Origin: Carboxylicivirga sp.
GTDB taxonomy: Bacteria > Bacteroidota > Bacteroidia > Bacteroidales > Marinilabiliaceae
Length of the DNA: 64,000 nt
NCBI GenBank assembly: GCA_025210475.1
Contig: JAOARW010000003.1
Coordinates: 62,001 to 126,000 of the forward strand
Reading direction: 5' to 3'
The first letter of the stretch is position 1; every line of letters begins with the position of its first letter. The position numbers were made by a program, and so were the translations under genes. Under the pieces are notes generated by a model, which saw only the letters and a list, made by a program, of their open reading frames with translations, was not told the origin of the DNA and ran no database searches. This document shows, piece after piece, positions 19,148-48,422 of this stretch.

Positions 19148-20308
19148 ATGCTTGCATTTAAACTAGCCTATAAAAATCTGATTGGAGCCGGACTAAGAAC
19201 TTGGTTGAATGTAACGGTTTTGTCTTTTGCTTTCGTTTTAATCATCTTCTACAATGGCATGATCGATGGTTGGAACCGGCAAGGACGCAACGATACACAA
19301 AACTGGGAGGTAGCCAATGGCCAATATTGGCACCCTACCTACGATAAATACGATGTTTTCAGTATTCGGGATAGTCATCAGGCCTTGTCGTCGGAGTTAT
19401 TGGCGGCTGTTGATTCGGGTCGCTTGGTGCCATTGCTAATCCAGCAGGCCACCATTTATCCGCAGGGTCGCTTGTTCAGTATCTTACTAAAAGGAATACC
19501 TACTCAGCAGGATTTGTTAAAGCTGCCAACACATCACCTTCGGAATAAGTCAGGTGAATTATTGGCGATTATTGGTAAACGAATGGCCGCAGCAACAAAA
19601 TTGAGCACCGGAGATAAATTGCTGATACGTTGGCGTGACAAAAACGGAACTTTCGATGCGCGCGAGTTGCATATTGTCGAAGTGTTTCAATGTGATGTTC
19701 CCTCGGTTGATAACGGGCAGGTTTATATTGATTTTGATGCGATGCAGGAAATGATGGGGCTATCAGATCATGCGACGCTAATCATCACCGGCGATGAGGA
19801 GCCGGCTGAAATTAATAACTGGGTATTTAATGATTTAAAGTTTCTATTGGCCGAACTGGATCAGATGATTGAGTCGAAAAAAGGTGGAGGCATTGTTCTT
19901 CAGGCGGTTCTGCTATTAATCGCCTTATTGGCCATTTTTGATACACAGGTATTATCCATTTTTCGTCGCCAGAAGGAGATAGGAACCTATATAGCATTGG
20001 GCTTAACCCGACGGCAAGTCGTAGGGATATATACTGTTGAAGGGGCGGCACACAGTATATTGGCTGCATTGGTAGGCGCTGCTTATGGCATACCTTTCTT
20101 TTGGTGGCTCGATAGTGTGGGACTGAGTTTCGGAACAGTCGATGTGGGCATCACCATTGCTGAGAAAATATACCCCTATTACAGCATTGGTTTGATTTTC
20201 TCCACCTTATTACTGGTGGTTTTTTCGGCAACGGTAGTGAGTTATTTACCCGCTCGAAAAATTGCCCGCATGAAACCAACGGACGCATTAAAAGGGAAGA
20301 TCCAATGA
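19148..20308 (+). CDS. FtsX-like ABC permease, copy 1 of a tandem duplication
   Basis: A 386-residue inner-membrane protein of the MacB/LolC/LolE type. It has one N-terminal membrane helix (TVLSFAFVLIIFYNGM), a periplasmic MacB_PCD-like domain of about 220 residues, and three C-terminal helices ending LPARKIARMKPTDALKG. That ending is the usual coupling tail of FtsX permeases. The next gene encodes a very similar protein (about 60% identity judged by eye, identical in blocks such as MIDGWNRQGRNDTQ and RWRDKNGTFDA). The two could form a heterodimer as LolC and LolE do. It belongs to the operon with the ATPase at 18331. Confidence 0.92.
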   Translation: MLAFKLAYKNLIGAGLRTWLNVTVLSFAFVLIIFYNGMIDGWNRQGRNDTQNWEVANGQYWHPTYDKYDVFSIRDSHQALSSELLAAVDSGRLVPLLIQQATIYPQGRLFSILLKGIPTQQDLLKLPTHHLRNKSGELLAIIGKRMAAATKLSTGDKLLIRWRDKNGTFDARELHIVEVFQCDVPSVDNGQVYIDFDAMQEMMGLSDHATLIITGDEEPAEINNWVFNDLKFLLAELDQMIESKKGGGIVLQAVLLLIALLAIFDTQVLSIFRRQKEIGTYIALGLTRRQVVGIYTVEGAAHSILAALVGAAYGIPFFWWLDSVGLSFGTVDVGITIAEKIYPYYSIGLIFSTLLLVVFSATVVSYLPARKIARMKPTDALKGKIQ

Positions 20309-20435: not shown

Positions 20436-21593
20436 ATGCTCGCACTTAAATTAGCCTATAAAAACCTCCTTGGAGCCGGATTGAGAACCTGGTTAAATGT
20501 CAGTGTTTTATCATTGGCTTTTGTGCTGATTATTTTTTACAATGCCATGATTGACGGTTGGAATCGCCAGGGGCGCAATGATACGCAGGACTGGGAAATT
20601 GGTCAGGGGCAATATTGGCACCCGAAATACGATCGTTATGATGTATTTAGTTATCTGGATGCCCATCAAAAGATATCGTCCGGGGAGCAGGACCTGGTTG
20701 ATAAAGGGCTTCTGGTTCCGCAATTGGTGCAGCAAGCAACCATTTATCCGCAGGGACGAATGCATAGTGTTCTACTGCGCGGAATACCAGCCTCGCAAAG
20801 TATTCTTAAGTTACCTACGGCGCAACTACAATCCTTGGATGGCGAGGTAAAAGGCTTGATTGGAAGGCGCATGGCCAAAGCTACCAAGTTAAATAAGGGA
20901 GATAGGGTATTGTTGCGCTGGCGCGATAAAAACGGCACTTTTGATGCCCTGAATGTGCTGATTGTTGATGTTTTTAAGTGCGATGTGGCCAATGTGGATA
21001 ATGGCCAGATATACCTGGGTTATTCAGTGATGCAGGATATGATGGGATACGATAACGAAGCCAGTCTTTTGGTAAGCGGAACTGAAACAGGTATGGAACT
21101 CAACAATTGGCTATATCAATCACCCGATGTATTATTAAAAGATCTTGATGATTTGATCAATTCGGAGCGAATCAGTGGGATGATTATGCAGATGATTCTC
21201 TTGATGATTGCCCTGTTGGCCATTTTTGATACACAGATTCTTTCAATTTTTAGAAGGAAAAAGGAAATAGGTACCTACATTGCTCTGGGCTTAACCCGGC
21301 AGCAGGTGGTTGCGATCTTTACCATCGAAGGAGCCTTTCACAGTGTATTGGCAGCCATATTGGGCGCTACATATGGAGTTCCGTTGTTTGTGTGGATTAA
21401 TACCGTAGGAATTAGTTTTGGAAATGCGGATATGGGCATTACCATAGCCGAAAAGATATATCCTTACTACAGTTTGCCATTGGTGTTTGGAACCATACTG
21501 CTGGTGCTGGTTTCGTCCACTATTGTTAGTTTTATTCCGGCACGAAAAATTAGCCGTATGAAACCGAATGATGCACTGAAAGGAAAGGGTTAA
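20436..21593 (+). CDS. FtsX-like ABC permease, copy 2 of a tandem duplication
   Basis: A 385-residue paralogue of the preceding permease with the same topology: one N-terminal helix, a large periplasmic domain and three C-terminal helices, ending FIPARKISRMKPNDALKG. The central periplasmic part (about 95-240) is the most diverged from copy 1, while the membrane helices and the segment QILSIFRRKKEIGTYIALG are nearly identical. This pattern suggests a duplication followed by specialisation of the substrate- or partner-facing domain. It is likely to pair with copy 1 or with the third permease. Confidence 0.92.
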   Translation: MLALKLAYKNLLGAGLRTWLNVSVLSLAFVLIIFYNAMIDGWNRQGRNDTQDWEIGQGQYWHPKYDRYDVFSYLDAHQKISSGEQDLVDKGLLVPQLVQQATIYPQGRMHSVLLRGIPASQSILKLPTAQLQSLDGEVKGLIGRRMAKATKLNKGDRVLLRWRDKNGTFDALNVLIVDVFKCDVANVDNGQIYLGYSVMQDMMGYDNEASLLVSGTETGMELNNWLYQSPDVLLKDLDDLINSERISGMIMQMILLMIALLAIFDTQILSIFRRKKEIGTYIALGLTRQQVVAIFTIEGAFHSVLAAILGATYGVPLFVWINTVGISFGNADMGITIAEKIYPYYSLPLVFGTILLVLVSSTIVSFIPARKISRMKPNDALKGKG

Positions 21594-38767: not shown

Positions 38768-40669
38768 CTATTCGTTGATTGATAGAGGTATTGAAAAATA
38801 AAAAGTAGAACCTTTATCAATTTCACTATCCAACCAAATTTCTCCACCAAGTATTTCAACAGCCATCTTGGAGATAGCCAGTCCCAAACCAGCACCCTCA
38901 TTAATTGATGAACTGTTAGTGGCCTGCCAAAAAGGTTTAAAAACTGAAGCCTGATTTTCAGTATCAATACCCAAACCTGTGTCAGCGACCTCAAATATCA
39001 GGCAATTCCCGCTGGTAGAATAGCTAATTGTGACCGAACCTTCCGGTGTGTATTTAATAGCATTGGATATTAAATTATTAAGAACCCGTTGAACTAGAAC
39101 TCTGTCGGAGGTAAGCTGAATGTCATTGTCAATCGTTTCAGATTGATTTATAATATCAATGTTGTTTTCCAGTTTATAAGAGAATAATTCGATGCTATCT
39201 CTGATAATTTGTTTGGCCGAAAAACTAGTCAATAATGGTTTGGTAACACCAGCATCCATTTTGGCTACTTCAATAATATTATTTAAGATGGCCAATAGCT
39301 GGTTTCCGTTATTAACGATAGTTTGAGCGTAATATTTTAACAATTCATTGTCGTGCAATTCTTCCTCCAGAATTTGGGCAAAGCCTAAAATACTATTCAT
39401 CGGCGTGCGAATCTCATGACTGATATTGGCCATAAATGATTTAGTTAGTTTTTCGCTTTCGCCTGCTTTTTCAATTGCCTTTTTTAACTCTACATTGATT
39501 TTCTTTAACTGGCTTTTTTCACTGGTCAGATCCGAATTGGAGATGTTTAAGCGATTAATCATTATCAGCAACTGCTTTTGCATCTGATCAAATTCTTTTG
39601 CCAACTGCCCGATTTCATCGTGTCGATTGATGAGCCGGTCTTTAACCCTTACATCAAGCTTGGAGTGTGCTATTTGGTTGGATAACTGCGTGAGGTGAAT
39701 GATTGGTTTGGAGATGTTTCTCGCAATCAGCGACGAAACAAACAGAACCAATATCGATACGATGATTGTCAACCAGATTGTATTGTATCCAATAACATTG
39801 ATAAGTGACAGGATGTCTTTCTGCGGAATGACCATTACCACGCGATAACCTGCCGATCCTAAATTAATGCTGGCTAACTCATATGTATCATCGTGAAACT
39901 TTATTTCTCTAATTATTTGCTCCTTCGGACCAGCAGTCAGCTCATCAATAACATGATCATCGAATAGGGCTTTTAGATTAATATTTATCTCATTTTCCTC
40001 TTTGGATATGAGGATTTTTCCTTCATTGTCAATAAGCCAGAGCTGTGTGTTTTCAGTGGTTTTATGCTCCTCGAAATGATCAATAAGAATGGTAGGATCA
40101 ATGCCTACTCCCGCTACTCCAATTGGATTGTTGGGGGAGCCCATAATCACATTAACGAATAACATGGATTGTTTGAGAATATTGTTATAATCGTAGTTGA
40201 GAGAAATCTTCTTTTTACTTTCTAAAGCTTCAAAGAACCACGTGTCATCCGGATCGAATTTAGTAACGACATCAAGAAGTCGAAAATCCTCGCACCAATA
40301 TTCATTTGTGTTTCTGTTGACGGCAAATATGGTTGAATATCCTAATTCTTTATGAATGAAATCAAGTTTTTGAAGCGCAATTTCTTTTAATTCAGGATTT
40401 GGTTTCTGAGAACCAAACCATTTTACAAAAGCCGGATCATCAGCTAAACTATGTGATGTTTCAATTGCTTTTTCGATAATAATCTGTAGATCACTCTGAT
40501 GTGCTCTAAGAATGGCGATAAGCTGGTTATCATATACTTCGGATAGTATTGATTTGCGTACAGAAAAATAATGTACCCAACTCAATGCCAATACAGTTAA
40601 TATTACAAATAAGCCTACAGTTAATACTAAATTATGTTTTATCGAATTGAATTTAAGCATATTAATCAA
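38768..40669 (-). CDS. Orphan sensor histidine kinase (extracytoplasmic sensor, HAMP, HisKA, HATPase_c)
   Basis: A 633-residue inner-membrane kinase. A first membrane helix (about 13-34) is followed by a dCache-like periplasmic sensor of about 260 residues (DDTWFFEAL, VNVIMGSPNNPIGVAGVGID, TQLWLIDNEGKILIS). A second helix (about 293-318), a HAMP segment (ISKPIIHLTQLSNQIA), a coiled coil, and HisKA with His418 in ANISHEIRTPMNS come next. The HATPase_c domain has QRVLNNLISNAIKYTP (N box), VADTGLGID and GAGLGLAISK. There is no receiver domain and no adjacent response regulator. The dCache domain suggests sensing of a small organic ligand. It is divergent from the receptor/macroglobulin pair across 212 bp. 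Confidence 0.92.
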   Translation of the reverse strand: MINMLKFNSIKHNLVLTVGLFVILTVLALSWVHYFSVRKSILSEVYDNQLIAILRAHQSDLQIIIEKAIETSHSLADDPAFVKWFGSQKPNPELKEIALQKLDFIHKELGYSTIFAVNRNTNEYWCEDFRLLDVVTKFDPDDTWFFEALESKKKISLNYDYNNILKQSMLFVNVIMGSPNNPIGVAGVGIDPTILIDHFEEHKTTENTQLWLIDNEGKILISKEENEININLKALFDDHVIDELTAGPKEQIIREIKFHDDTYELASINLGSAGYRVVMVIPQKDILSLINVIGYNTIWLTIIVSILVLFVSSLIARNISKPIIHLTQLSNQIAHSKLDVRVKDRLINRHDEIGQLAKEFDQMQKQLLIMINRLNISNSDLTSEKSQLKKINVELKKAIEKAGESEKLTKSFMANISHEIRTPMNSILGFAQILEEELHDNELLKYYAQTIVNNGNQLLAILNNIIEVAKMDAGVTKPLLTSFSAKQIIRDSIELFSYKLENNIDIINQSETIDNDIQLTSDRVLVQRVLNNLISNAIKYTPEGSVTISYSTSGNCLIFEVADTGLGIDTENQASVFKPFWQATNSSSINEGAGLGLAISKMAVEILGGEIWLDSEIDKGSTFYFSIPLSINE

Positions 40670-40881: not shown

Positions 40882-43755
40882 ATGATTATGCACATGTACC
40901 TAACCCACAAAAGTCTGTTATTGTTTATATGGATATTAATCTGGCCTTATTCGCTTCAGGCTCAAAATGAAGAGATATTGGTTGTTGGCACCATGACTGA
41001 TAAACAAGGCGAAGCAATACCCGGATTATCAGTTTTTATTGAAGGCTCAACTAAAGGCACCGTTACCGATATAAATGGTCATTATTCGATAAAAGCACCA
41101 TTAGGCTCAACGCTCGTTTTTAGCTTTATTGGGATGAAAACACAACGGGCGAAAGTAACGCGTACCGGATTAAATCCTAAAGGCACAAGAAAAATCATAC
41201 CTTATAATAAATTATCTGATGATGGCCGCTTTAAAAAGGAACAAGCAATTCAGGCGAAAAAGGATTCCATTAAATACGATAAACGGATTAAAATGTACCG
41301 GCGCTATCTGGCTGATTCTGCTATCCTGAGGACTTACGATAGACAACATGTGGAGGCTGTGGAAATGAATAGCGGGAGAGCAAAGCGTAAAGTACGTCGT
41401 TACACCGATCCCTATGGCAATCGAAACTTTTTAATGGGCAACGTCGTGATTGAAAGTGATGTTTCCATGTTGACTACAGGCCGATTGCCTAATTTACAAT
41501 CGACCAATTCACAAGGCAGGCCTTTAGGTGGTCAGTTGCTTTATCGGGGACCTGAAACCGGCGAATATTATTCCTGGGGACCACCTGTTCGAAATTTGGA
41601 GTTTGATGGTATTCCAACATCCAATGATTCGAATGGGTCTTTGGTTTTTAAGGGAATGGGTAATGGTAAAGCTGCCAATAATTACGAGTCAACTAATTTC
41701 TTTCGAACCGGATTTGAGCGCTCCATTGGGATTGCCTCTTACCAAACAATCTTCGGTATGAAAACCAACCTGTTTTATCAAAACCAAAAAGGTGAAGGAG
41801 TTATTCCAAACGAAGAAAATACACAACATACTTTACGCTTTAAACTAAATTGGAATGAGCGGCTTAAAGTCAGCCTGAACTACAGCAATAATAAACAAGG
41901 TTTCAAGAATGGATTGATGCAGTCACGCATTTTGGCAGCCGTCTATCAAACACCTGTAAGTTTTGATAATGCTTTCGGTTTGTCTTCCAAAGAAGCTTTA
42001 AAGCAGGCCAGTAGTATTTATCATCCCGATGGAACAGTTCGAAGTGCTTCACCAGGCAGGCTCGATAATCCTTACTATATGGTTAGGGAAACTGGTGATT
42101 CAAGGAAAATAAACGCCTTCCAATACAAACTTAATTACAAAACAAATTGGAATAAAGGATCGCTTAATGCTAATGTTTCAGGTGAGATGTACCGCGATGA
42201 TCGTTACCTGGCTTTACCTGATTTAGTGGCTGGAAATTCTTCAAACAGATCCAGTGAACGCCTGGAGGAACTGGATAACTACTTTGTTGGTGCAAATTTA
42301 AGTAATCAGCTTTTCAACTATCAATTGCAATTAAAGGTTCCGGTTCGCTCCGAGTTTTATAATTACAGTCGAAGTTTAAGCCTGGATCATTCAGATCAAA
42401 TACCGGTTAACAATTCGAGACAGCTATTAATGGCTAATCCGCATCTGCAGTTCAAACACGATCAGGATATCTTTCTAATAAAGTCAGGACTGAATCTTTA
42501 TTCATCGTCTACCAGCGGTAAAACTTACTTAAGGCCTAATGTGGGAATCTATTTTAATCCCTTTCAATTTTTAGATGATGCATTTATTTGGAGTACCAGT
42601 GAGGTATTTCAAACCTTCAAATTGAGCTATAATTACCATACACAGATGAATGAGTATAGTTTTCAGACACCAGTCGGTTTATGCAACTCCTTGTTTTATA
42701 ATGTCAGTGAGTTCAATTCCTATTTCGAAGAGCGTGAGATTGGTGTCACGGAAGGTATAGTGCCGGAGCATGTAAGTAAGCATAATTTATCGCTCAACAC
42801 ATCCTTCCTATATGGTCGCCTTAATTCCGAAACAACTGTTTATTGGTCAAAGCGTGAAAACAGTATCTTCCCCATTGTTGAAGGCGATGCCCTGATGTTT
42901 AAAAACATTGGTGATATTAAAACAAAAGGCTGGGAGCAGGTAATTGAAGCCCGTTTGTTTCAATCGGGTTTTAGATGGAACGCCAGTCTGCTTATTTCTC
43001 AAACAAAACCTGAGCTTGAAAAACTCTTTGACAACGAGGTTGTGGCGGTGGCCGGTTTCAAGGATGTTCACACCGCATTAATGGAAGGTGAAGTTCCGGG
43101 AGTAATTAGAGGAAGTGCTTACCAACGAAATGATAGAGGCCAAAAGGTTATTGGCGATCATGGTTTTCCTTTGGTTGATGACCAGGTAAAGGTGCTCGCC
43201 GATCCCAATCCTGACTGCCTGATTGGTTTTAGTAACCGCTTTAGTTCGCGAGCCTGGAGTTGGGGTTTCACAATTGATGGGGTTATCGGTGGAGATGTGT
43301 GGAATGGAACACAGTCAAGCCTGGATTATTATGGCGTTTCGGAGCTTACTGCCAGGCAACGTCTTGTATCCGATTATATTTTTGATGGCGTTAATATGGA
43401 TGGATCGATCAATAATACCCTGGTGGATTTTGCACCTAAAGAAGGCAGCGTTGAAGAAAACAGATGGGTTCGCTATGGAAAAGGTGGCGTGGCCGAAGAC
43501 TACATCCAGGATGCATCGCGTTTGGTACTGAAGGAGCTTTACCTGAAGTATGATTTTAATAAAAAAAAGATAGCATCATGGGGCCTTGAGAAACTTTCAG
43601 TTTCCGCTTATGCCAACAACTTGGTCACCATATCCGCTTATGATGGAAATCTGGGATCAAACACCTTATGGGGACACCATAACACTATGGGACTCGATTA
43701 CTTTAATACTCCACAGATTCGTCGTTACGGCCTTAAATTAAAACTAACCTTTTAA
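40882..43755 (+). CDS. SusC/RagA-like outer-membrane barrel lacking a recognisable plug domain
   Basis: A 957-residue exported protein. It has a signal peptide ending SLQAQ (27) and a CarboxypepD_reg-like domain (about 33-94, GTMTDKQGEAIPGLSVFIEGSTKGTVTD). A Lys/Arg-rich linker of about 90 residues (95-183) with no plug motifs follows. From about 184 the sequence is that of a SusC barrel: ESDVSMLTTGRLPNLQSTNSQGRP, YRGPETGEYYSWGPPV, LEFDGIP, FFRTGFERS, to the terminal YGLKLKLTF. The normal plug signature (YG-x-x-x-A-NGVI-x-I-x-TK-x-G) is missing here but present in the product of the next gene, 26 bp downstream. No SusD-like lipoprotein accompanies it. The ligand is unknown. Confidence 0.82.
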   Translation: MIMHMYLTHKSLLLFIWILIWPYSLQAQNEEILVVGTMTDKQGEAIPGLSVFIEGSTKGTVTDINGHYSIKAPLGSTLVFSFIGMKTQRAKVTRTGLNPKGTRKIIPYNKLSDDGRFKKEQAIQAKKDSIKYDKRIKMYRRYLADSAILRTYDRQHVEAVEMNSGRAKRKVRRYTDPYGNRNFLMGNVVIESDVSMLTTGRLPNLQSTNSQGRPLGGQLLYRGPETGEYYSWGPPVRNLEFDGIPTSNDSNGSLVFKGMGNGKAANNYESTNFFRTGFERSIGIASYQTIFGMKTNLFYQNQKGEGVIPNEENTQHTLRFKLNWNERLKVSLNYSNNKQGFKNGLMQSRILAAVYQTPVSFDNAFGLSSKEALKQASSIYHPDGTVRSASPGRLDNPYYMVRETGDSRKINAFQYKLNYKTNWNKGSLNANVSGEMYRDDRYLALPDLVAGNSSNRSSERLEELDNYFVGANLSNQLFNYQLQLKVPVRSEFYNYSRSLSLDHSDQIPVNNSRQLLMANPHLQFKHDQDIFLIKSGLNLYSSSTSGKTYLRPNVGIYFNPFQFLDDAFIWSTSEVFQTFKLSYNYHTQMNEYSFQTPVGLCNSLFYNVSEFNSYFEEREIGVTEGIVPEHVSKHNLSLNTSFLYGRLNSETTVYWSKRENSIFPIVEGDALMFKNIGDIKTKGWEQVIEARLFQSGFRWNASLLISQTKPELEKLFDNEVVAVAGFKDVHTALMEGEVPGVIRGSAYQRNDRGQKVIGDHGFPLVDDQVKVLADPNPDCLIGFSNRFSSRAWSWGFTIDGVIGGDVWNGTQSSLDYYGVSELTARQRLVSDYIFDGVNMDGSINNTLVDFAPKEGSVEENRWVRYGKGGVAEDYIQDASRLVLKELYLKYDFNKKKIASWGLEKLSVSAYANNLVTISAYDGNLGSNTLWGHHNTMGLDYFNTPQIRRYGLKLKLTF

Positions 43756-43781
43756 GCTTAACCTTCAAATATATCATTAAG

Positions 43782-46700
43782 ATGAGAACAAAAATATATA
43801 TATCAATCCTGTTGTTATTGGCATTGATCGCAACGGGCTTTACTCAGCCTGCTGATTTGTTTTTGCGCTATCTGCAAAAGAAACTAACAGAATACAATAT
43901 GCTCTATCCGGCAGAGAAAGCTTATTTGCATACGGATAAAACGTTTTATAAACCGGGTGATGATATCTGGGTGGCCGCTTACCTTTTGGATGGTGTCAAC
44001 CATAGGGCTTCTGACATTAGTAATGTACTTTATGTGGAGCTGATCGATCCCAAGGGAGTCACCATCAAACAGCATATGTTTCAGGTTGAGGATGGCAAAT
44101 GTGAGGCTCACCTGCATTTACCCTACGAAGCACCGGGCGGGCTTTATAAGCTAAAGGCCTATACCAAATGGATGTCGAACTTCGGAAGTAAATTTACCTT
44201 CGAAAAAAAGTTGCAGGTGCAGAAGATTGTTAAACCTCGTATTCTTTCCATATTGGATTTTACCAAAGAGGCTTATGGCGCTTCCGATACAGTAATGGCC
44301 AATCTGAATGTACGCGATTTAAGCAATGTACCAATTCGCAACCAGTCTTTTAGTTTTATGGTGCATCTGAAAGGCAATTTGCATCAGCGGGGTAAGGCAA
44401 CAACCGACCATAAGGGAGATGCCATCATACGGTTTGTTTTGCCTCAAAAGCTAAATTCTTCTGATGGGGTGCTAAATGTGCTTTTATCGCACCGCGGCCG
44501 TAACGAATCCATCTCGGGAGCGATTCCGATTGTATTGAATAAGCTGGATTTACAATTTATGCCCGAAGGGGGTGATGCCATTGCCGGGCAGCCTTGTCGC
44601 ATGGCATTTAAAGCTCTGAATGAGTTTGGCAAGCCAGCCGATGTGAAAGGACAGATTTACAATAGCAAAGATTCTTTGGTCGCTAACTTCGAAAGTTTTC
44701 ATCAGGGAATGGGCGCCTTCGAATTTGTGCCGGTTATTGATGAGGTTTATTCCGCGGTAATTCAGAAACCATCGGGGGTGAACCGCCGATACACGTTACC
44801 GAAAGCCCAGACAGAAGGATGTGCATTGCACCTGAAAGATCGCGATGGTTCAGTGTATCGATTCGAACTGAATAGTAATGTTACACAAAAGGTGCATGTG
44901 GTGGCTCATTTAAGAGGACAGATGCTTTACAGTGAATCCTACAACTTAAAAGGTGCCAAACAGGTATTACCAATTACCATAGAAAAGAAGGGTTTGAGCG
45001 GTGTTGCTCAAATAACAGTTTTTGATGATTATGAGCGTCCTTTGGCCGAGCGATTGTTTTATGTTTTTCCAGAGAATAGGTTAAGTATTGAGCTAAAAAC
45101 CAATAAAAAGACTTATGCTCCTCGTGAAAAGGTGGAGATGGAACTTCAGGTTAACGATGCGAAAGGAAATCCTGTTGAAGGAAATTTCTCCTTGGCTGTG
45201 GTGGATGATAAGCTCATTACTTTTGCCGATGACAAGCAAGACAATATCTTATCCAACCTTTTACTGTCATCTGATTTGAAGGGCGAAATATACGAACCTT
45301 CCTTTTATTTTAATCCTAAAGAAGAAAAAGCAGCGGAAGCCATTGATTACTTACTCTTAACGCAAGGGTGGCGACGATTCAACTGGTCGGAGGTACTGCA
45401 CATGAAAAAGATTAAGTTGCAGGAACCCGAACGATTTGATCAAATACTTGGACAAATCACCAGCAATGCTGGCAAAGGCGTTAAAGCCAAGGTGGTGATT
45501 GTGGATGATCAACTCAATAAATTCGCCAAAATAACTACGGAGGAGGGCGGACGATTTTCAGTATCGGGTCTAAAAAATTACAAGATGCTGCAGGTTTATG
45601 CTTTCCCACTCAATCGTAAGGAAAGAAATATTCGCATTAACATCAGTCGGGCAAATCCGAATATAAAAAAGTACTCGGCCGATAGTCACGTTGGCTTCGG
45701 TAAAGTAAAAGTCACGGCATTAACCGCCCAAACTGAAGGTGTTGATGATGTGATTGAAATGGCTGTGGCTGATGAGGATATTGATCAGGTAATATCTGGT
45801 ACGGGCATTGGCTTTGCTATGGAAGAGGAATCAGTTGCATTGGAAGAGGTGGTTCTGATGGGTTATGGTAGTTCGCGTAAGAGTGATTTAACCGGAGCTG
45901 TGACAAGGGTCGTCTCAGATGAACTTCAGGGCTATACTGCAAGTGTCAACAGTGCCTTAAGTGGTAATGTAGCCGGTGTGCAGGTAATAAATGACAGTGG
46001 TATCTATGGCAGTCGTTCATCTGTTTCCATCCGGGGAAGCTCTTCGCTAACAGGAAACAGTCAGCCTTTGTACATTTTGGATGGAGTACCGGTTACCGGC
46101 ATGCCACCTGTTCAGCCTAACGAAATAGAAAGTATCAGTATTTTAAAAGGTGCTACATCAACCGCTTTATATGGTAGTCGGGCAGCCAATGGGGTAATCA
46201 TCATTAATACCAAAGAAGGATACCACGAACTTTATCACCGAACACGAAAATATGCCCGTAAAATGGTAAAGCAGTATGTGGCTAACTCCTTTGTTTTCGA
46301 TAATGTAAAGGAGTTTTATGTACCGCAATATGGTCGAAAGGAATTTTTGAATGAAAAGCTGGATAAGCGCGAGACCATCTATTGGAATCCGCTTATAAAA
46401 ACCAATAAAAAAGGTAAAGCTAAGGTGGTATTTTATAATTCAGATGAGGTAACTACTTTTCGCGCAACACTTGAAGGCTTTTCAGAGAAAGGATTGTTAG
46501 GGCGAACCGAGTATTATTATAATGTTGTGAAGCCTTTAAGCATCGAATGCAAAATTCCTCCTTACGTGGTTTTTGAAGACATTATTAGATTACCAGTTTT
46601 GATCACCAACAATTCAGATGTGCCTTTGGAAGGAACTTTGGATGTAAAACTCCCTGAAAGTTGGCAATGGGTTGATACGCCCCCTGCAAAAGTTCAAATA

Positions 46701-48422
46701 AATGCCAATGGTTTTGCTGAGCTGGTATTAGCCGTAAAAGTTGGAGCTGCTGTTGGTAAGGAAAGTGTAAAGCTAAATTTCGATGCCGGCTCATTAAAAG
46801 CCGAAGATATTAACGAAACACAGGTAGTCAGCAAAGGTTTTCCGGCTGAGATGTCTTATTCAGCAAGGGCCAAAGAGGCTTCATTTACATTTGATTTGTC
46901 TCAGGCAGTCAACCAAAGTACCGAAATGAGTATCTCGGTATATAATAATGTATTGGCTGAAATAATGGACGGTATCGAGTCAGTGATTCGTCAGCCTCAC
47001 GGTTGTTTTGAACAGGTGAGTGCTGCCACCTATCCGAATATTTTAATTCTGAAATACCTGGAGGAAAATGGAGAATTGAGCGATGAACTTAAAGGGAAAA
47101 CGCTTAGTTATATCCGAAGCGGCTATAAGAAACTGGCGGCTTATGAAACCAAAGATTATGGTTTTGAATGGTTTGGCAAAACACCTCCTCACGAAGGCTT
47201 GACTGCTTTTGGCTTGATGGAATTTTACGATATGATGGCGGTTTATGCTGATGTGGATGCAAATATGCTGAAACGAACCAGGCAGTGGTTGTTAAGCCGA
47301 AAAGATGGCAAGGGTGGTTTTGTAACCAACAAGGGTAAATATGGTTTTTCCGGTGCATCGGATAAGGTAACGGCCGCTTACCTGGTTTACGCCTTTTCGG
47401 AAGTGGGGATACCTCCCGAAAAATATCAACTGGAATACGATAAGGCCTGGAACGAAGCATTTAGAAGCAAGGATGCTTACCGTATGGCCTTAATGGCCAA
47501 TGCCGGATTAAACCGCAAAGATCAGGAGAAAGCCACGCAATTGATAAATGTGATGCTGCAGAAACTCAAAAATGGTAAAGTTGAGAAGCTAAAGGCCGAC
47601 CATTCCATTGTGCGCTCATGGGGTAAATCGTTGCAGGTTGAGGTGGCTGCCTTAACTGCTTTGGCTCTGATGAAACAAGGTGATCAGCATTTTACCGAAG
47701 TTATGATGCTGATGGATTACATCTTTGGTGCGCGCAGTTATGGTGGATTCGGATCGACCCAAGCCACTGTATTGGCACTTAAAGCCATTACCGAATATGC
47801 TTCCATCGTTAATAAAATGCCCGAAGATGGTTCGCTAATAATTCGTATTAATGGGAGAGAAGTTGCAACAAAGGCCATAAAGAGCAGCGATAAAATTGTG
47901 AAAATAGATGGTTTGGAGGATTACCTGACAAATGGAGTTCAAAAAATTGATGTTCGTTTTAATAACTTATCCAACCCTCTCTCATTCTCGGCCAATGCCA
48001 GCTGGCGTCAAAAAGTACCGGTATCGTCTAATGCCTGCAAGGTGCAAATTGAAACCAAACTGATGAAAGAGACCTGCAAGAAAAATGAATTGGTTCGCTT
48101 ATCAACACGACTCTTTAACAGAAGCATGAGCGGTTTGCCAATGACAGTAGCCATGGTGGGCATTCCTTCGGGACTTTCGGCTCAGCCCTGGCAACTAAAG
48201 AAGATGCAGGAAGAGCATGTGTTTGACTATTATGAAATTCATAAGAACTACGTGGTGTTTTATTACCGCGAGCTGGGACCGAATGCCAGAAAAACAATTC
48301 ATCTGGATCTGAAGGCAGAGGTGCCGGGGCAATATTCATCGCCGGCCAGCTGTGCTTATCTATATTACACCAATGAGCATAAAGACTGGCATATGGCTGG
48401 TAATATTGAAATTATGGAATAG
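43782..48422 (+). CDS. Alpha-2-macroglobulin family protein with an inserted SusC-type plug domain
   Basis: A 1546-residue exported protein whose signal peptide ends near TGFTQ; there is no lipobox. An MG2 domain lies at about 45-140 (EKAYLHTDKTFYKPGD), followed by more macroglobulin domains and a CarboxypepD_reg-like segment (about 560-630). Residues 687-813 are a complete TonB-receptor plug: LEEVVLMGYG, SALSGNVAGVQVI, SVSIRGSSSL, PLYILDGVPV, GATSTALYGSRAANGVI and INTKEG. The A2M/MG7 region resumes at about 855 (ETIYWNPLIKTNKKGKAKV). The thioester domain follows with PHGCFEQ (Cys1075, Gln1078) and an alpha/alpha toroid to about 1370, then a C-terminal receptor-binding-like domain. The plug sits about where the protease bait region lies in macroglobulins. 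It is in an operon with the plug-less barrel. Confidence 0.88.
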   Translation: MRTKIYISILLLLALIATGFTQPADLFLRYLQKKLTEYNMLYPAEKAYLHTDKTFYKPGDDIWVAAYLLDGVNHRASDISNVLYVELIDPKGVTIKQHMFQVEDGKCEAHLHLPYEAPGGLYKLKAYTKWMSNFGSKFTFEKKLQVQKIVKPRILSILDFTKEAYGASDTVMANLNVRDLSNVPIRNQSFSFMVHLKGNLHQRGKATTDHKGDAIIRFVLPQKLNSSDGVLNVLLSHRGRNESISGAIPIVLNKLDLQFMPEGGDAIAGQPCRMAFKALNEFGKPADVKGQIYNSKDSLVANFESFHQGMGAFEFVPVIDEVYSAVIQKPSGVNRRYTLPKAQTEGCALHLKDRDGSVYRFELNSNVTQKVHVVAHLRGQMLYSESYNLKGAKQVLPITIEKKGLSGVAQITVFDDYERPLAERLFYVFPENRLSIELKTNKKTYAPREKVEMELQVNDAKGNPVEGNFSLAVVDDKLITFADDKQDNILSNLLLSSDLKGEIYEPSFYFNPKEEKAAEAIDYLLLTQGWRRFNWSEVLHMKKIKLQEPERFDQILGQITSNAGKGVKAKVVIVDDQLNKFAKITTEEGGRFSVSGLKNYKMLQVYAFPLNRKERNIRINISRANPNIKKYSADSHVGFGKVKVTALTAQTEGVDDVIEMAVADEDIDQVISGTGIGFAMEEESVALEEVVLMGYGSSRKSDLTGAVTRVVSDELQGYTASVNSALSGNVAGVQVINDSGIYGSRSSVSIRGSSSLTGNSQPLYILDGVPVTGMPPVQPNEIESISILKGATSTALYGSRAANGVIIINTKEGYHELYHRTRKYARKMVKQYVANSFVFDNVKEFYVPQYGRKEFLNEKLDKRETIYWNPLIKTNKKGKAKVVFYNSDEVTTFRATLEGFSEKGLLGRTEYYYNVVKPLSIECKIPPYVVFEDIIRLPVLITNNSDVPLEGTLDVKLPESWQWVDTPPAKVQINANGFAELVLAVKVGAAVGKESVKLNFDAGSLKAEDINETQVVSKGFPAEMSYSARAKEASFTFDLSQAVNQSTEMSISVYNNVLAEIMDGIESVIRQPHGCFEQVSAATYPNILILKYLEENGELSDELKGKTLSYIRSGYKKLAAYETKDYGFEWFGKTPPHEGLTAFGLMEFYDMMAVYADVDANMLKRTRQWLLSRKDGKGGFVTNKGKYGFSGASDKVTAAYLVYAFSEVGIPPEKYQLEYDKAWNEAFRSKDAYRMALMANAGLNRKDQEKATQLINVMLQKLKNGKVEKLKADHSIVRSWGKSLQVEVAALTALALMKQGDQHFTEVMMLMDYIFGARSYGGFGSTQATVLALKAITEYASIVNKMPEDGSLIIRINGREVATKAIKSSDKIVKIDGLEDYLTNGVQKIDVRFNNLSNPLSFSANASWRQKVPVSSNACKVQIETKLMKETCKKNELVRLSTRLFNRSMSGLPMTVAMVGIPSGLSAQPWQLKKMQEEHVFDYYEIHKNYVVFYYRELGPNARKTIHLDLKAEVPGQYSSPASCAYLYYTNEHKDWHMAGNIEIME

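Follow-up and report, generated by a model that had tools for sequence, protein, structure and literature searches.

TonB-dependent transporters are understood as single chains in which plug and barrel are joined, and the SusC/RagA members of the family (Bt1762-63, BT_2264, RagAB) are accompanied by SusD. In SprA-Plug of the type 9 secretion translocon, a large barrel is stoppered on its periplasmic side by a separate protein. Here we analysed 64,000 nucleotides of Carboxylicivirga sp. DNA (assembly GCA_025210475.1, contig JAOARW010000003.1, positions 62,001 to 126,000; hereafter the window) and describe a gene pair, P0001 and P0002, encoding a SusC-type barrel devoid of a plug and an alpha-2-macroglobulin (A2M) that bears one. 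The pair shares with SusC/RagA the barrel fold, the N-terminal CarboxypepD extension and the plug and Ton-box family, yet plug and Ton box reside on another protein and no SusD gene is adjacent. Plugging from the periplasmic side, as we propose for the pair, would resemble SprA-Plug, where however barrel and plug are unrelated to those of the pair and not of TonB type, and no A2M takes part.

P0002 shares with the thioester (type I) bacterial A2Ms ECAM and SaA2M the macroglobulin (MG) domains, the A2M/MG7 part, a thioester domain (TED) with a C-x-E-Q motif and a C-terminal MG domain, but differs in that its bait slot bears a plug and a Ton box, in the lack of a lipobox pattern and in its barrel gene partner. 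PMC4498604 describes the disordered bait region of A2Ms as lying within one macroglobulin domain (MG8 in E. coli, the counterpart of human MG6), bait cleavage as springing the trap, and E. coli ECAM as linked to Pbp1C. Among the titles and abstract openings listed for open-licence papers in PubMed Central, a scope outside which preprints and most subscription papers lie, none describes a barrel paired with an A2M-borne plug. No known system was found that joins a TonB plug to an A2M, although the parts belong to known families; to count the arrangement as a split variant of the TonB-dependent transporters would not be wrong.

The first gene of the pair is laid out as follows, at coordinates that an open reading frame (ORF) check confirmed.

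40882..43755, + strand: plug-less SusC-type outer-membrane barrel gene, P0001, 957 aa (ORF, Pfam, TIGR04056, profile match to 5fq6_B)
40987..41169, + strand: CarboxypepD_reg-like N-terminal extension of P0001, residues 36-96 (Pfam PF13715, 1.3e-14)
41170..41430, + strand: K/R-rich linker of P0001, residues 97-183, at the position of Ton box and plug in a SusC; no conservation among relatives
41431..43752, + strand: barrel proper of P0001, residues 184-957 (start set by the alignment; 5fq6_B 162-984 matched by the family profile)

An earlier note on this DNA, made from the sequence alone, had described P0001 as a barrel that passes from a CarboxypepD_reg-like domain through a basic linker into SusC sequence with no plug between, and this description was borne out by Pfam, by TIGR04056 and by a plug-profile scan. 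Following an N-terminus that looks signal-like by eye, the Pfam matches are confined to CarboxypepD_reg-like domains (best at 36-96), and the linker shows no conservation in an alignment of 10 barrel sequences. The NCBIfam SusC model TIGR04056 hits the protein in three stretches, the best at 607-957 (6.5e-50, under its whole-protein cutoff), which together with the family profile match to 5fq6_B identifies a SusC-type barrel. Pfam Plug gave no match to P0001 even at E<=10, and was absent from all nine plug-less barrels scanned (the further ones at E<=1). A plug hidden in residues 95-183 was ruled out by an unfiltered scan (hmmsearch --max), where the plug profile reached -2.6 bits, at residues 805-852. 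A frameshifted or truncated SusC was likewise ruled out, by 57 complete plug-less relatives.

The second gene starts 26 bp further downstream.

43782..48422, + strand: plug-bearing alpha-2-macroglobulin gene, P0002, 1546 aa (ORF, Pfam, NCBIfam, 5fq6_B match)
43917..44174, + strand: MG2 domain of P0002, residues 46-131 (Pfam PF01835, 2.9e-14)
44913..45212, + strand: MG5/6a, A2M_BRD-like, residues 378-477, weak (Pfam PF07703, 0.0041, below cutoff)
45441..45578, + strand: CarboxypepD_reg-like piece in the bait slot, residues 554-599, weak (Pfam PF13620, 0.0062, below cutoff)
45840..45863, + strand: Ton-box-like motif LEEVVLMG, residues 687-694 (pattern; compare DEVVVTG of Bt1763)
45879..46196, + strand: SusC-type plug in the bait-region slot, residues 700-805 (Pfam PF07715, 2.2e-16; SusC signature 781-811; 5fq6_B 16-172)
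46374..46640, + strand: MG6b/MG7, residues 865-953 (PF00207)
46932..47798, + strand: thioester domain TED, residues 1051-1339 (PF07678, 1.4e-29)
47001..47015, + strand: thioester motif GCFEQ, residues 1074-1078 (sequence; GCxEQ in 61/61 pairs)
48141..48383, + strand: A2M receptor-binding/C-terminal MG domain, residues 1454-1534 (PF07677, 2.1e-6)

P0002 had been claimed to be a macroglobulin with a plug inside its scaffold, and Pfam agrees, placing MG2, MG7/A2M, TED and a C-terminal MG domain in A2M order. The SusC signature over the plug is NCBIfam TIGR04057. The CarboxypepD piece and the plug fall between the MG5/6a match and PF00207, a position that we read as the bait slot of MG6, and by Pfam and alignment this slot would hold, in turn, the CarboxypepD piece, a linker, the plug and a second linker.

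Residues 680-816 of P0002 align to residues 16-172 of 5fq6_B, the structure of the SusC BT_2264, while a profile of 48 plug-less barrels aligns to residues 162-984 of the same chain (5.6e-46). Judged by these alignments, P0001 and P0002 jointly hold the parts of one SusC, namely Ton box, plug and barrel. The complementarity extends over 61 such pairs, in which the unfiltered plug profile never exceeded 0.6 bits on the barrels and gave 84-160 bits on the partner A2Ms. A strict Ton-box pattern stands ahead of the plug in 56 of the 61 A2Ms, the remaining five being near misses by eye, and is found in none of the 61 barrels within residues 61-260. Each of the 61 plug-bearing A2Ms retains the thioester GCxEQ; a plug-bearing A2M outside this set (L036) has GCFMQ instead of GCFEQ.

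The co-occurrence of the two halves was surveyed from both sides and proved near-perfect in each direction. Starting from the barrel, one genome per species was scanned with a profile (A1) built from 10 plug-less barrels, and the best 80 of 466 loci were analysed; the loci came from this alignment-based scan, a single-sequence scan of the genome contigs having given no matches. The query consisted of plug-less barrels themselves found beside A2Ms, so that plug-less barrels of other kinds may be missed. In these loci 82 SusC-type barrels are complete, of which 57 lack a plug and 25 have one. A plug-bearing A2M follows directly after 56 of the 57, generally with a gap between -29 and +9 bp (51/56), and after the 57th (L081) comes an A2M split into two ORFs; none of the 25 plug-bearing SusCs is followed by such an A2M. 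SusD-like genes have the opposite distribution, standing after 23 of the 25 plug-bearing barrels and after none of the 57 plug-less ones, with Pfam confirming the SusD identity in eight of eight tried, and the same SusD profile found no SusD-like ORF in the window. The plug-less barrels are 23-54% identical to P0001, are intact in the 57 complete cases, and occur in Marinilabiliaceae, Dysgonomonas, Azobacteroides, Flavobacteriaceae, Weeksellaceae, Chitinophagaceae and Cytophagales, among others.

Eight incomplete barrel rows were excluded from this tally. Among them, L126 and L134 have an A2M with a plug next, and in L109 the next ORF, ended by the contig edge, has MG2 and a plug; L145 holds a barrel cut at its N-terminus and then a 446-aa ORF without A2M and plug, and L100 and L113 are edge pieces. 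In two Chryseobacterium genomes the plug-less barrel gene is fragmented (L126:4434-6903 and L142:8755-11296), and next to the broken barrel of L142 no plug-bearing A2M was seen. A barrel fragment on contig 681 of G174 was considered as a lone plug-less barrel and rejected, as its C-terminus scores highest against ordinary SusCs.

The second survey does not start from barrels, and used the C-terminal, plug-free part of P0002 as query on samples of two larger groups, with some genomes shared: in the order 17 of 393 genomes gave a match, and in the class 66 of 395. This gave 83 distinct matches (19 and 66, two shared), of which 81 yielded an A2M ORF, the end fragments L187 and L188 giving none; 79 ORFs with MG2, MG7 and TED were tallied, L019 and L034 being dropped as part of the domains is missing. 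For 72 of these either at least 1500 bases upstream were available or a barrel was seen, the seven left out comprising two with a SusC plug, one with a weak plug and four with none. A plug-less barrel lies immediately upstream of 10 of the 11 A2Ms with a SusC plug and of none of the 61 that lack one (Fisher 2e-11, with no correction for kinship). In the genome of the window, where 150 of 362 candidates were scored, the window gene is the sole barrel match that is strong and nearly full-length in a frame below 1000 aa; all further strong matches come from frames of at least 1002 aa, and one weak, partial match lies in a 941-aa frame that also contains a plug. The plug-less barrel and the plug-bearing A2M thus form a conserved pair across Bacteroidota.

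Related A2Ms that lack a SusC plug have a linker in the bait slot, and a few carry other inserts there: a TonB C-terminal domain (by PF03544 in L041, L046, L047 and L048, by profile in L034) or a different type of plug (by Pfam Plug in L042 and L047; 'Oar-like' is our own label). No plug-less barrel was seen in the available upstream sequence of these six loci. The bait slot thus acquires modules of the TonB system repeatedly.

From the complementarity of the halves, their nearly constant pairing, their coinheritance and an apparent exchangeability of the A2M plug with SusC plugs, we consider it probable that the pair is a split TonB-dependent transporter, in which the A2M plug docks in the barrel in trans. 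The barrel would lie in the outer membrane, lacking a plug, a Ton box and a SusD lid. With a simple pattern no lipobox was found near the start of any of the 61 A2Ms, and nothing long follows the last MG domain in an alignment of 13 A2M sequences; the simplest reading is a soluble periplasmic protein, and we regard a periplasmic location as likely. Its plug, borne by a long insertion at the bait-region position of MG6, would enter the barrel lumen from the periplasm and seal it. In SusC the Ton box is on the periplasmic side, and the plug can leave the barrel; crystals were obtained of a barrel that had lost its plug to proteolysis (PMC7782687, which also gives the Ton box of Bt1763). As Ton box and barrel start are both periplasmic in SusC, a loop-borne plug could dock while the body of the A2M remains in the periplasm, where the Ton box would allow TonB/ExbBD to pull the plug out. 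Anything entering the pore would then encounter the A2M cage.

What happens on opening can be outlined with less assurance. Because the plug occupies the bait slot, its extraction, or the cutting of the linkers that hold it, could act as the bait trigger, whereupon the thioester would capture the incoming protein or protease; this coupling we put forward tentatively, as a possibility rather than an expectation. In the fuller version, which appears to us somewhat unlikely, the device is a TonB-powered covalent trap, where the plug replaces the protease bait and is pulled by TonB on cargo or freed by an incoming protease that cuts the linkers. The sprung thioester would bind incoming protein on its entry to the periplasm and so filter the traffic of a large pore. 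In Chryseobacterium, a second plug on another protein, described below, may occupy the vacated barrel and report the event. The earlier note proposed that pore opening or signalling may be coupled to the cleavage or thioester capture of a target, a proposal that fits the bait-slot position of the plug, the thioester motif found in all 61 pairs and the ECF sigma genes present at some loci.

Evolutionary distances within the pairs add to this picture. Either half of the barrel agrees with the MG, TED and C-terminal segments of the A2M at r 0.75-0.94, lowest for TED, indicating that the two genes travel together. The plug of L109 (Flavobacteriaceae) shares 58-60% identity with Aquimarina-type SusC plugs and 50% with the sole A2M plug among its eight nearest rows, and the closest match of the L123 plug is a SusC plug from Saprospiraceae (58%), with A2M plugs close behind (53-56%); scaffold and barrel of both loci are nearest to other A2M pairs. 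A plug tree, built without six loci (L035 and duplicate genomes) and without plug hits shorter than 95 residues, rejected a single clade of the 15 Flavobacteriaceae A2M plugs in the approximately unbiased (AU) test (p 0.0004, or 0.0065 without L109), values that are indicative only as the groups were named after the tree was seen. This suggests that SusC plugs have replaced A2M plugs at least twice (L109 and L123), with scaffold and barrel staying. Ordinary SusC plugs apparently inserted in A2Ms and retained there are the best sign that the A2M plug performs the job of a SusC plug. Conservation points the same way: over 141 columns the site conservation of A2M plugs tracks that of SusC plugs (Spearman 0.73), and the residue is kept in 52 of the 71 highly conserved SusC columns, a comparison made without seven plugs that are duplicate, distant or truncated.

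Several observations weigh against docking in trans. Some loci have a further plug protein upstream of the barrel, which we call anti-sigma-like (our own label; Pfam gave no anti-sigma match); these plugs track SusC conservation less (Spearman 0.62, residue kept in 39 of the 71 columns), but they also share the SusC profile, so that the profile alone is no proof of a barrel partner. Distances of the A2M plug follow those of the barrel poorly (r 0.44-0.45, against 0.75-0.77 in ordinary SusCs, 29 proteins), in part because the A2M plugs do not form one group in the tree, and they agree with neither barrel nor scaffold (r 0.31-0.48). Given the other A2M segments, the partial correlation of plug and barrel is 0.07-0.12, compared with 0.29-0.42 for MG6b-7, with all segments present in 81% of the sequence pairs; no special coevolution is apparent. 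Mutual information with average product correction (MI-APC) on the 61 pairs (effective sequence number, Neff, 41.6) gave no plug-barrel enrichment, on too few sequences to resolve contacts: plug column pairs number 0 in the top 300 and 8 in the top 1000, where 78 are expected. Considering the few sequences and the strong clade differences, we weigh this result as leaning negative. On the side of genomics, gating of the pore in trans by a macroglobulin-borne plug, as first suggested in the earlier note, is well supported.

Plug and barrel are also not inseparable. The A2M of L049, the one exception among the 11 with a SusC plug in the second survey, has no barrel in the 2.8 kb upstream, and its draft genome (1670 contigs, 91% complete) gave only two barrel-profile matches at 1e-40, both plug-bearing. 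The window's own genome encodes a 1961-aa A2M (L013:6431-12316) with CarboxypepD and plug just before MG7 and no barrel neighbour, and two MG2 proteins of 868 and 870 aa (L009:6079-8685 and L010:1906-4518) have a degenerate plug-like part. Like P0002, these Bacteroidota proteins carry a plug or its remnant on a macroglobulin scaffold; unlike it, they have no plug-less barrel in the stretches examined. A macroglobulin plug alone does not imply a dedicated barrel.

Among the alternatives, a signalling device survives best, although we hold it to be unlikely. Here the A2M plug, in Chryseobacterium together with the anti-sigma-like plug, would compete for the barrel, and occupancy would report damage or ligand to an extracytoplasmic function (ECF) sigma factor. 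In 17 Chryseobacterium/Cloacibacterium loci (among L088-L148) a plug-bearing membrane protein is encoded directly upstream of the barrel, and in all 17 a 160-190-aa ORF, of sigma length, precedes it; Pfam identified an ECF-type sigma in both tried (L097 and L088). Such loci (e.g. L097, L098, L102, L104 and L132) read ECF-sigma-like gene, anti-sigma-like plug protein, plug-less barrel and A2M with plug, so that two plug proteins flank one barrel. Some of the anti-sigma-like proteins have VWA/YfbK domains, and Pfam Plug was found in five of six upstream plug-profile proteins scanned, the exception being that of L088. A sigma gene also adjoins the Flavobacterium loci L050 and L080. At the Chryseobacterium/Cloacibacterium loci these arrangements suggest that barrel occupancy can be read as a signal. 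On the other hand, no ECF sigma or anti-sigma gene was seen beside the window pair, and in many other lineages inspection of the two ORFs upstream by eye recognised no sigma gene; signalling may be an add-on.

Less likely still is that the plug is a docking anchor, which merely tethers the A2M under the barrel as an ordinary protease trap, with no transport or TonB-driven opening. In its favour, the thioester motif is conserved and other plug-bearing MG proteins do occur without a nearby barrel; against it, a mere anchor has no need of the Ton-box motif that nearly all pairs retain before the plug, and SusC plugs appear to replace A2M plugs. Historical hitch-hiking, in which one ancestral rearrangement put a plug in an A2M next to a SusC in decay and the two, though not interacting, were kept by their operon linkage, is very improbable: it could draw on the lack of a coevolution signal and on a single origin of the plug not being rejected on the scaffold tree (quick analysis, LG+G4, AU p 0.085), but the barrels are intact and conserved while the upstream neighbours differ by lineage, the plugs look swapped for other plugs rather than decayed, and L185 and L186, nested among plug-bearing A2Ms on long branches of unsure placement, have neither plug nor barrel.

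In the window, the upstream neighbour of the pair is a divergently oriented kinase gene, a possible regulator of the pair; by eye, L071 has an ORF of comparable size (634 aa) in the corresponding position.

38768..40669, - strand: divergent sensor histidine kinase (Pfam: dCache below cutoff, HAMP, HisKA, HATPase)

Elsewhere in the window, two adjacent ABC-permease-like ORFs (19148-20308 and 20436-21593) look by eye like a tandem duplication.

Returning to the proposed split transporter, many Bacteroidota separate the plug from the barrel, with the slot that triggers a complement-like trap housing it instead. Docking in trans, if it occurs, would make the pair a natural system in which to control, swap and assay the removal of the plug, and would bear directly on the question of how far out of the barrel a plug moves in transport. 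Bacterial macroglobulins would at the same time gain a defined place of action and a non-proteolytic trigger.

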